This document shows, in pieces, positions 2,732-4,348 of a stretch of 17,761 nucleotides of DNA. The notes beneath the pieces are model-generated. The model had not been told where the DNA came from. It worked only from the letters and a program-made list of their open reading frames with translations, and did no database searches. The position numbers and the translations under genes were made by a program. Within the stretch, counting starts at the first letter, position 1; every line of letters begins with the position of its first letter. This DNA is from Anaerolinea sp. (GTDB taxonomy: Bacteria > Chloroflexota > Anaerolineae > Anaerolineales > Anaerolineaceae): NCBI GenBank assembly GCA_029975965.1, contig JARKOV010000101.1, forward strand, positions 1 to 17,761, in the 5' to 3' direction.

Positions 2732-2766
2732 AAAAAACCATCCGGCAGACTGTGCTACCGGATGGT
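2732..2766 (-). terminator. Intrinsic terminator of the rpsU-infA operon
   Basis: On the minus strand ACCATCCGG (2766-2758) and CCGGATGGT (2745-2737) form a perfect 9-bp stem followed by a run of six T (2737-2732). It lies 35 nt after the infA stop, the expected position for the operon end. Confidence 0.9.
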
Positions 2767-2800: not shown

Positions 2801-3052
2801 CTATTCCTCTTCGGCGCCGGGTTCCTGGTGTTTTTTCTGGCGGTAGACGATCCGCCCGCGCGTCAGGTCATAGGGTGAAATTTCCACCCGCACGCGGTCA
2901 CCGAGCAAGATGCGGATGTAATACTTGCGCATCCTTCCGGACAGATAGGCCAGCACTTCGTGCCCGTTATCGAGCTTGACCCGAAACTGCGTGGCGGGCA
3001 AAGCTTCAACGATGGTGCCGTCTACCTGGATCTTTTCCTCTTCTTTCGCCAT
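2801..3052 (-). CDS. infA: Translation initiation factor IF-1
   Basis: This 83-residue protein is a single OB-fold (S1-like) factor that binds the ribosomal A site of the 30S subunit during initiation together with IF-2 and IF-3. Recognisable family segments are [19 protein letters not shown] (7-25), [20 protein letters not shown] (27-46) and [20 protein letters not shown] (48-67), ending with RIVYRQ. It has an unusual acidic tail (EPGAEEE) about ten residues longer than the common 72-residue form. The ATG at 3052 has AAGGAG about 5 nt upstream. It lies 44 nt behind rpsU on the same strand, with a terminator right after it, so the two form a small translation operon. In many bacteria infA instead sits in the large ribosomal protein cluster. 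Confidence 0.97.
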
Positions 3053-3096: not shown

Positions 3097-3300
3097 TTAG
3101 CTCTCCATCCCTCGCCCGGTCTGGCGGCGTTTAATCCTGCGGATGGCCTTTTTCTTCTCCACCCGTCGTAACTCGCTCTTGCTGATGAACCAGCGCTTGC
3201 GCCGGACGGTGCTGAGCACGCCGCTCTTGACGACCTTCTTGCGAAAGCGCTTCAGCAATTGATCCTGCGACTCGTTAGGGCGCAGAACGACTACGGTCAC
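3097..3300 (-). CDS. rpsU: 30S ribosomal protein bS21
   Basis: This 67-residue, very basic protein matches bS21: an N-terminal [20 protein letters not shown] strand-helix followed by a Lys/Arg-rich helical tail (residues 33-63). bS21 binds the 30S platform beside the 3' end of 16S rRNA, next to the anti-Shine-Dalgarno sequence. The start is GTG at 3300. The ribosome binding site (3305-3314) contains GGAGGTGATC, ten bases fully complementary to the canonical anti-SD 3' end of 16S rRNA. The gene is first in an operon with infA and is preceded by a ~180-nt structured leader with an internal terminator, suggesting feedback or attenuation control. Confidence 0.96.
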
Positions 3301-3304
3301 GTTT

Positions 3305-3314
3305 GATCACCTCC
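3305..3314 (-). promoter_or_regulatory. Ten-base extended Shine-Dalgarno of rpsU
   Basis: The minus strand reads GGAGGTGATC, then AAAC, then the GTG start of rpsU. All ten bases are complementary to the canonical 16S rRNA tail GATCACCTCC. Other RBSs checked here (infA AAGGAG, merR-type gene GGAGG, RNase H AAGGAGG) show only 5-7 pairs. Confidence 0.85.
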
Positions 3315-3361
3315 CCTCGTTTAAGGGATAAATTACACAATCAAATTTCCTGTAAAACGGT

Positions 3362-3394
3362 AAAAAAACCGGCTGGTCTTCACAGATTCAGCCG
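3362..3394 (-). terminator. Intrinsic terminator inside the rpsU leader (attenuator)
   Basis: On the minus strand CGGCTG (3394-3389) pairs with CAGCCG (3375-3370). An inner TCT/AGA helix is capped by GTGA, a GNRA-type tetraloop, and seven T follow (3368-3362). It lies about 60 nt upstream of the rpsU start and about 90 nt downstream of the predicted promoter start, so readthrough must occur or be regulated for rpsU-infA expression from that promoter. Confidence 0.8.
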
Positions 3395-3484
3395 AGTAAG
3401 GGGTGCGGGTCGATGGAGTTCATTCCTCGGTTGTTTCTGCCTTTAAACCTCATTCACCTGCGTGATTAAGGCGCCTGTCCAGCG
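3395..3484 (-). ncRNA. Structured rpsU-infA leader RNA, candidate attenuator or small RNA
   Basis: From the predicted start near 3484 the RNA folds locally as follows. GCGC/GCGC pairs at the very 5' end. A hairpin follows at 3471-3448, with arms CCTTAATCAC and GTGAATGAGG around a GCAG loop (one A-A mismatch, one G-U). CCGAG (3430-3426) can pair with CTCGG (3396-3392). That last 3' arm overlaps the 5' arm of the terminator at 3362-3394, so pairing CCGAG-CTCGG would compete with termination. I do not recognise a known riboswitch or described ribosomal-protein leader class. The RNA could instead be an independent ~120-nt terminated small RNA. Confidence 0.55.
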
Positions 3485-3489
3485 CAAAA

Positions 3490-3518
3490 ATTATACCTTA
3501 AGGCGAGGTTTTTTACAA
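3490..3518 (-). promoter_or_regulatory. Sigma70 promoter of the rpsU leader
   Basis: On the minus strand TTGTAA (3518-3513) and a perfect TATAAT (3495-3490) are separated by 17 bp. The predicted start is near 3483, about 183 nt before the rpsU GTG. Confidence 0.75.
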
Positions 3519-3554
3519 TATAAACGAAAGCGTAACCTATGGCTTTCTTAAAGT

Positions 3555-3591
3555 CGCCCCCACCCCTGCCCCGTCTCCTCAAGGAGGCGGG
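3555..3591. repeat. C-rich dispersed intergenic hairpin element, copy 1
   Basis: A CGCCCCCACCCCTGCCCC run is followed by a hairpin, CCCGTCTCC-TCAA-GGAGGCGGG (3570-3591; nine pairs including one G-U). A related element in the opposite orientation is at 6268-6305. It belongs to the CCCTCACCCCCAGCCC...GGAG type of intergenic repeat that I recall as common in many genomes. The rest of 3592-3700 shows no gene. Confidence 0.5.
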
Positions 3592-3706
3592 AAACCGGAG
3601 ATCCGTGGGAGGAAAAACTACCGATCCAATTCGGCATCTTTCCCCTTGGGCCTGGCAGGCACCGCGGACTTGATACAACGTTGAGATCACGGGGTGGCAG
3701 GTCGGG

Positions 3707-3730: not shown

Positions 3731-4348
3731 ATGGAAAACATACTGCTCGATCCGAACGTGGGTTATTTGTTGCTGGTCGGGGGATTTGTCCTGGCCATCC
3801 TGGCTTTATTTGCGCCGGGGACGGGCGTGCTGGAAATTGGCGCGGTGTTCGCGCTGCTCCTGGCGGGATACACCCTGGCGAACCTGCCGGTCAACGGCTG
3901 GGCGATCGTGTTGATGATCGTGGCGGTATTTCCGCTGGTCCTGGCGGTGCGGCGGTGGCGCGGGCGCACCGGCCTGATTTTGCTGCTGGTGGCAATCGCA
4001 GCGCTCATCCTGGGCTCGGTGTTCGTCTACCGCACTGCATCGGGCGGGCCGGCGGTGAATCCTATCCTGGCCGTGATCGTTTCAGGCGGGTCGGGCTGGC
4101 TGTTGTGGTTCATGGCGCGCAAGAGCCTGGATGCTTTCGCGATGATCCCCAGCCACAGCCTGGATCGCCTGGTGGGGATGCGCGGCACCGTACGCAGCGA
4201 CATCCGCCCGGAAGGCACGGTATACGTGGGCGGTGAGGAATGGTCGGCGACCAGCGATGTCGTCATTCGAGCGGGTGAAGACGTGCGCGTCAAAGCCCGC
4301 CAGGGACTGGTTCTGATTGTGGAACCTTTGAAAGTGGAGGATAAGTGA
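3731..4348 (+). CDS. NfeD-like membrane protein with C-terminal OB fold
   Basis: This 205-residue protein has an N-terminal membrane part with about four to five hydrophobic segments (roughly 10-30, 33-52, 55-73, 80-98 and 105-125). A soluble domain follows from about 140, carrying the NfeD signature LVGMRGTVRSDIRPEGTVYV followed by GEEWSA, then VRVKARQGLVLIVEPL. NfeD proteins are membrane partners of SPFH/stomatin-like scaffolds and are thought to organise membrane microdomains; long versions add a ClpP-like protease that is absent here. The SPFH partner begins 1 nt after the stop codon, the standard nfeD-slipin operon arrangement. The ATG at 3731 was chosen because the protein then begins with the family-typical DPNVGYLLLVGG segment. 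The RBS is weak (GGACGGTG). Confidence 0.88.
   Translation: MENILLDPNVGYLLLVGGFVLAILALFAPGTGVLEIGAVFALLLAGYTLANLPVNGWAIVLMIVAVFPLVLAVRRWRGRTGLILLLVAIAALILGSVFVYRTASGGPAVNPILAVIVSGGSGWLLWFMARKSLDAFAMIPSHSLDRLVGMRGTVRSDIRPEGTVYVGGEEWSATSDVVIRAGEDVRVKARQGLVLIVEPLKVEDK

Follow-up and report, generated by a model that had tools for sequence, protein, structure and literature searches.

The segment between positions 3301 and 3518 of a 17,761-nucleotide stretch of Anaerolinea DNA (the whole stretch is referred to here as the window) probably attenuates transcription of the rpsU-infA operon in cis, as a ribosomal-protein-operon leader. The best reading of the evidence is that it represents a new ribosomal-protein-operon attenuator which is conserved in many Anaerolineae. 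An rpsU-infA attenuator acting on transcription would, as far as could be found, be without precedent for bS21. The features of the locus are listed in Table 1.

Table 1. Features of the rpsU-infA locus and its leader, in window coordinates.
Feature	Position	Strand	Description	Basis
NfeD-type gene	3731-4348	plus	divergent neighbour upstream of the rpsU leader	
Promoter	3490..3518	minus	sigma-70-type, TTGTAA-17-TATAAT	10/12 consensus matches
P1 5’ strand	3479..3483	minus	GCUGG, at the presumed start of the transcript; closing helix of the antiterminator	folding
Hairpin P2b	3447..3472	minus	ten-position hairpin 3471-3448; contains GAGG in the window	folding
GAGG	3448..3451	minus	near-invariant Shine-Dalgarno-like element	relatives
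P3 5’ strand	3426..3440	minus	GCAGA..CA.CCGAG	folding; own-terminator pairing in the family
P3 3’ strand	3382..3396	minus	CUCGG.UG..UCUGU, overlaps the terminator 5’ arm and loop	folding
Intrinsic terminator	3362..3394	minus	stem 3394-3389/3375-3370 (CGGCTG/CAGCCG), U7 at 3368-3362	sequence, folding
P1 3’ strand	3372..3376	minus	CCAGC, overlaps the terminator 3’ arm	folding
Short hairpin	3310..3327	minus	CCCUU/GAGGG, loop AAAC (3327-3314), abutting the rpsU Shine-Dalgarno sequence GGAGG (3314-3310)	sequence
rpsU	3097..3300	minus	bS21, 67 aa, GTG start	PF01165, 48.8 bits
infA	2801..3052	minus	IF-1, 83 aa	PF01176, 91.5 bits
Terminator of the rpsU-infA unit	2737..2766	minus	12-pair stem, then T run	

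The 2 kb scanned for promoters contained two promoter-like sites, where 0.9 would be expected. Transcription probably starts near 3483, which gives a leader of about 183 nucleotides. The Shine-Dalgarno region of rpsU has the sequence GGGGAGGUGA. Assignment of the leader terminator to an upstream gene was considered and rejected, as the upstream neighbour is the divergent NfeD-type gene. The inner part of this terminator reads UCU-GUGA-AGA and its loop is therefore a GNRA tetraloop. The terminator was not picked up by the program terminator scan, which has a loop limit of 8 nucleotides.

In the window, the P3 pairing CCGAG/CTCGG (3430-3426/3396-3392) extends into CA/UG and GCAGA/UCUGU (3440-3436/3386-3382). 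P3 is thus composed of 12 base pairs with two internal loops, and P1 has 5 base pairs. For the transcript 3483-3355, folding at minimum energy gives a three-way junction of P1, a middle hairpin, and P3, with a free energy of −35.8 kcal/mol; the same transcript with the terminator enforced has −34.3 kcal/mol. A transcript truncated ahead of the terminator 3’ arm folds into P3 and the middle hairpin. The terminator and the antiterminator are mutually exclusive because P3 occupies the 5’ arm and P1 most of the 3’ arm. An initial annotation of this DNA had described the promoter, the terminator, the CCGAG/CTCGG pairing, and the ten-position hairpin, all of which were recovered at the same positions. 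Its proposal that the two folds exclude each other agrees with the re-pairing of both terminator arms by P3 and P1 and with the competition seen across the family. The antiterminator it had called a weak 5-bp helix is in fact about 12 base pairs with a 5-bp closing helix.

The window’s antiterminator, taken alone, is no better than chance. When the window RNA stops at the terminator stem, termination is favoured by 2.2 kcal/mol versus 3.2 kcal/mol for shuffled leaders (z −0.4), and P1 and P3 rank 0.65 and 0.37, respectively, among swapped partners. The P1 5’ strand GCUGG is unchanged in all five rows of alignment A2, in which MAFFT places P3 off by about one column.

Related loci were collected by a scan of genome contigs with a bS21 protein, which gave 80 loci, mostly from Anaerolineae, Chloroflexi, or genera of that group. 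A hairpin plus T-run is found upstream of rpsU in relatives. Conservation of the hairpins, on which the initial annotation had made its proposal depend, was borne out, as the terminator and the competing fold are kept and 66 of the 80 loci have TATAAT, GAGG or GGAG, and a terminator ahead of rpsU. Together with the window, these make 67 leaders. An exact TATAAT is present upstream in all 67, a set that was chosen partly for the presence of a −10 box. The leader filter left 14 of the 80 loci out of this set. In eight, the −10 box is too near the hairpin or absent (L045, L052, L064, L069, L071, L076, L078, and L079), one is without a terminator (L062), and five were removed by hand because GAGG is missing at the expected place or the hairpin is doubtful (L032, L054, L072, L075, and L080). 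A further 117 loci included one without a bS21 match and 60 duplicates; 56 were kept, and 15 of these passed the leader filter. The resulting 82 leaders (67 + 15) were reduced to 68 at less than 80% identity. The distant Chloroflexota loci L129-L137 and L179-L197 all failed the filter.

At the family level, a mutually exclusive antiterminator is conserved beyond chance. This was seen in three tests that work without an alignment, each applied to the 68 leaders. In the first, a swap test, the pairing of a leader segment with its own terminator is compared with its pairing to the terminators of other leaders. The first 25 nucleotides of the leader (P1) and the segment GAGG+4 to +34 (P3) both prefer their own terminator, with z of −6.6 and −5.2, respectively, values that are not exact normal scores because some controls drift positive (up to +3.2), while none is strongly negative. 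As controls, three other stretches were set against the terminator, with z of −0.7, +3.2, and −0.3, and four combinations of leader parts were paired with each other, with z of +3.0, +1.6, +2.1, and −0.5. At least one of the P1 and P3 segments falls within the best 10% of partners in 33 of 68 leaders, where about 13 are expected. In a position profile of the same leaders with 14-nucleotide windows, own-terminator pairing peaks at leader nucleotides 8-21 (z −6.8), which is 8-21 nucleotides after TATAAT. A second peak begins at GAGG and extends to about +27 (z between −2.5 and −3.4), with no such pairing between the two peaks.

A gap test, defined as the energy of the antiterminated fold minus that of the terminated fold, gave a mean of −0.9 kcal/mol versus +4.0 kcal/mol for shuffled leaders (n = 68). 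The mean z is −1.64 (t −12.6), with z below −1 in 47 of the leaders and below −2 in 27. The controls were the first 110 terminator-like hairpins found in the same loci, taken with slightly stricter hairpin cut-offs and a fixed 100-nucleotide upstream stretch; their mean z is 0.03, with z below −1 in 17 of 110 and below −2 in 9 of 110. Set against these controls, the test indicates that many leaders are kept near the balance of termination and read-through.

The leaders can be sorted by the strand that competes with the terminator. P3 is the dominant antiterminator in L003, L007, L012, L023, and L060, and the 5’ end (P1) is dominant in L037, L061, L063, L074, and L118. For ten related, diverged P1-type leaders, the RNAalifold consensus structure is the P1 antiterminator and not the terminator. 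In this ten-row subgroup, formal covariation is weak: two of the 16 P1 pairs change on both sides, a number matched by 203 of 500 column shuffles, and the covariation score is reached by 52 of 500.

The GAGG element is present in 62 of the 67 leaders, and the remaining five contain GGAG. It lies 46-69 nucleotides before the terminator stem, and 52-59 nucleotides in 56 of the 67 leaders, a narrow spacing that is partly chosen because the picking rule fixes the position: the GAGG (else GGAG) closest to 57 nucleotides before the stem was taken, at least 30 nucleotides into the leader and at least 40 nucleotides before the stem. A random GAGG is estimated to occur in a 24-nucleotide stretch in about 9% of leaders (24/256). 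GAGG is complementary to the anti-Shine-Dalgarno sequence, and a 16S 3’-end 16-mer with CACCTCC was found in three of the eight genomes searched. Across the 68 leaders, GAGG is on average unpaired with upstream or downstream leader RNA; in the window’s genus it can pair with CCUU. Placement of GAGG inside a family-wide conserved hairpin was rejected, with swap z near 0 upstream and not negative downstream, and with no excess over shuffles. The segment from GAGG to GAGG+36 folds no better than shuffles (t 0.5), whereas the segment from the 5’ end to GAGG does (t −4.1; 68 leaders for both).

Start codons are not enriched behind GAGG and are depleted in some ranges only. ATG, GTG, or TTG occurs 3-10 nucleotides behind it in 13 of 67 leaders versus 21.7 expected; the counts for the other ranges, also with n = 67, are 18 versus 24.2 (2-10 nucleotides), 24 versus 24.2 (4-12), and 37 versus 33.3 (0-12). 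ATG alone is found in 5-12 of the 67 leaders across ranges, with 6.0-9.4 expected.

The specificity of the leader for rpsU was examined with two covariance models, one built from five window-type leaders and one from ten P1-type leaders. The searches covered 147 genomes of the family and 251 of the phylum, under stricter filtering at which weak matches are lost. The five-leader model has matches in 11 of 147 genomes and the ten-leader model in 10 of 251, one in each genome, and all lie directly upstream of rpsU. The models recognise close relatives only. Training sequences make up 14 of the 21 matches (4 of 11 and 10 of 10), and the ten-leader run therefore shows only the absence of other places. 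The other seven matches of the five-leader model are in genomes outside the training set, with E-values of 3.9e-5 to 8.9e-4. The leader is thus found consistently upstream of a ribosomal-protein gene, as is characteristic of r-leaders. The simpler pattern GAGG-N42-60-CGGCTG-N6-16-CAGCCG occurs in 81 of 121 genomes and has many places away from rpsU among the matches listed; it is therefore no test of specificity. Rfam 15 gave no match at the gathering score over the window and none at E ≤ 5 for positions 3250-3600, and in ten relatives it gave rRNA matches only.

A mechanism can be proposed from these folds. RNA polymerase would transcribe the leader, the 3’ part of which can fold as an intrinsic terminator. 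Before the 3’ arm emerges, the 5’ arm and loop of the terminator could be captured by upstream leader RNA, namely the stretch after GAGG (P3), the 5’ end of the leader (P1), or both as a three-way junction, as predicted for the window. Capture would lead to read-through into rpsU-infA. The computational results support these steps. A factor bound at GAGG or close to it presumably decides between the folds. An excess of bS21, or free 30S subunits replete with bS21 and with their anti-Shine-Dalgarno sequence on GAGG, would cover the P3 5’ strand, which would free the terminator and create a negative feedback loop on rpsU-infA. As the sensor, bS21 or the 30S subunit is the leading but tentative candidate, plausible yet short of probable. 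Binding of bS21 or 30S subunits at GAGG fits P3-type leaders better than P1-type leaders, in which it is not obvious that a 30S subunit bound at GAGG would mask the P1 strand. GAGG may act as an orphan Shine-Dalgarno sequence with no conserved start codon, to which a free 30S subunit carrying bS21 binds while the leader is being made and covers the antiterminator strand so that termination follows, although this is speculative and rather unlikely. If it were true, the attenuator would gauge the pool of idle, complete 30S subunits and not a free protein or metabolite, and the supply of both bS21 and IF-1 would be set by that pool. Docking of ribosomes at GAGG with no start codon would also mean that 30S availability drives attenuation without a leader peptide.

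In attenuation by a leader peptide, GAGG would serve a short ORF as its Shine-Dalgarno sequence, and translation of that ORF would select the fold. Attenuators of the trp type have mutually exclusive terminator and antiterminator hairpins and a Shine-Dalgarno-like sequence in the leader. The Anaerolinea leader is like them in both respects; GAGG or GGAGGU would be a good Shine-Dalgarno sequence whose spacing to the terminator varies rather little, and an ATG stands behind GAGG in single leaders (L021, L024, L038, and L046). It is unlike them in that ATG, GTG, and TTG are not enriched behind the element in any of the four ranges, and no consistent ORF was seen with these three starts considered. 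The lack of enrichment makes trp-type attenuation very unlikely. The initial annotation had also raised the idea of a separate small RNA. In that case the terminated RNA of about 115 nucleotides would stand alone and the terminator would be just its 3’ end. This would suit a compact RNA delimited by a promoter and a terminator, but it becomes highly improbable given that the model matches lie directly upstream of rpsU only and that a terminator-destroying fold, needless for a stand-alone RNA, is maintained. CsrA or another GGA-binding protein acting on GAGG or GGAG is highly unlikely. The CsrA family is present in four of the six leader-bearing genomes searched, whereas no CsrA match was obtained in leader-bearing genomes G003 and G034 (contigs of L002 and L031), the assemblies of which may have gaps. 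CsrA usually binds in a hairpin loop.

IF-1 might be the sensor, or might itself act as an antiterminator by melting the terminator; E. coli IF1 has antitermination activity, and IF-1 is an OB-fold RNA-binding protein. The infA gene is directly downstream in all 78 leader loci tested, the infA match beginning 30-84 nucleotides beyond the rpsU match. Against this, 21 of the 29 loci that fail the leader filter likewise have infA behind rpsU, a contrast that is not clean because at least one of the failing loci, L120, does carry a leader. Loci L045, L052, L062, L071, and L124 have no leader by eye, yet infA is present, and melting of RNA would not need a conserved GAGG. A role of IF-1 is consequently judged unlikely. 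Direct binding of free bS21 to the leader, at a site made of GAGG and the junction and without the 30S subunit, would leave the segment an attenuator and change only the sensor. All 21 model matches, 14 of them training sequences, are at rpsU, the antiterminated fold of the window is a compact three-way junction, and binding of a protein to its own 5’ UTR is the norm for r-leaders (PMC7247131, in excerpt). The antiterminator helices, however, vary strongly among lineages, and the sole near-invariant element found is a 4-nucleotide Shine-Dalgarno-like sequence, which offers little for protein recognition. Direct binding is thus somewhat unlikely.

Control of bS21 has been described in other bacteria and, according to a 2024 review, is not understood even in E. 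coli (PMC10931766, in excerpt). In E. coli, bS21 enables pairing of the 16S 3’ end with the Shine-Dalgarno sequence (PMC10931766, in excerpt). In Flavobacterium and the Bacteroidota, bS21 autoregulates rpsU through an extended Shine-Dalgarno sequence and ribosomes lacking bS21 (PMC9976891, in excerpt), such that bS21, as a part of the ribosome, controls its own synthesis (PMC10931766 and PMC9976891, in excerpt). The Anaerolinea leader resembles this system in the gene concerned, in the Shine-Dalgarno-like cis signal, and in the bS21 status of the ribosome as the proposed signal (PMC9976891, in excerpt). It differs in that Flavobacterium uses translational control at the rpsU start codon with anti-Shine-Dalgarno sequestration by a Bacteroidia-type bS21 (PMC9976891, in excerpt), while Anaerolinea has a transcription terminator and antiterminator. 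The Shine-Dalgarno-like element of the Anaerolinea leader is upstream of the terminator and has no conserved start codon, and the effect would need the opposite sign.

There are 35 known or predicted r-leaders plus 20 candidates (PMC7247131, in excerpt). The Anaerolinea leader shares with r-leaders of the attenuator type a structured 5’ UTR ahead of ribosomal-protein genes, alternative folds, and an intrinsic terminator (PMC7247131, in excerpt); any ligand binding or rRNA mimicry by it is putative. It is similar to the multiform rpsL- and rimP-leaders (PMC2965389, in excerpt) in that a terminator is conserved ahead of translation genes and other parts differ by lineage, and is unlike them in the genes concerned, the near-invariant GAGG, and the measured own-terminator pairing. 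The main text of PMC7247131, PMC2965389, PMC11109978, and PMC6429828 has no mention of S21 or rpsU. A bS21 or rpsU attenuator was not found in the literature searched or in Rfam 15, and the claim of novelty is limited to these; the initial annotation had likewise known of none among ribosomal-protein leaders.

Several loci differ from the window upstream of rpsU. In L045, L052, L062, and L071, no promoter-terminator leader was found, and the sequence there looks coding by eye; rpsU may therefore be co-transcribed with another gene. Loci L124, L174, and L177 are without such an attenuator. In these three, ATCACCTTTTGGAAGGGAGGTGA at the rpsU Shine-Dalgarno sequence can form a hairpin that sequesters it, and the 5’ strand of this hairpin resembles the 16S rRNA 3’ end (GGAUCACCUCC). 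This may be a different, translational control of rpsU. Locus L127 has a related region upstream of rpsU without the exact ATCACCTTTTGGAAGGGAGGTGA stretch.

In four of the ten relatives scanned (L061, L068, L113, and L125), rpsU and its leader are directly behind an rRNA operon, with the 23S and 5S rRNA ends upstream on the same strand. The leaders of L113-L126 form a sub-lineage that has the conserved block GGAGTGTGAAGCG, which varies slightly, followed before the terminator by a hairpin of the TGATCGCAAGGTCA type.

Pairs of the type CCCU..AGGG, like those of the short hairpin at 3327-3310, are visible by eye in many relatives. The stretch between the terminator and the start codon folds better than shuffles across the 68 leaders (t −6.2). 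The hairpin at 3327-3310 is possibly a second, translational layer of control.
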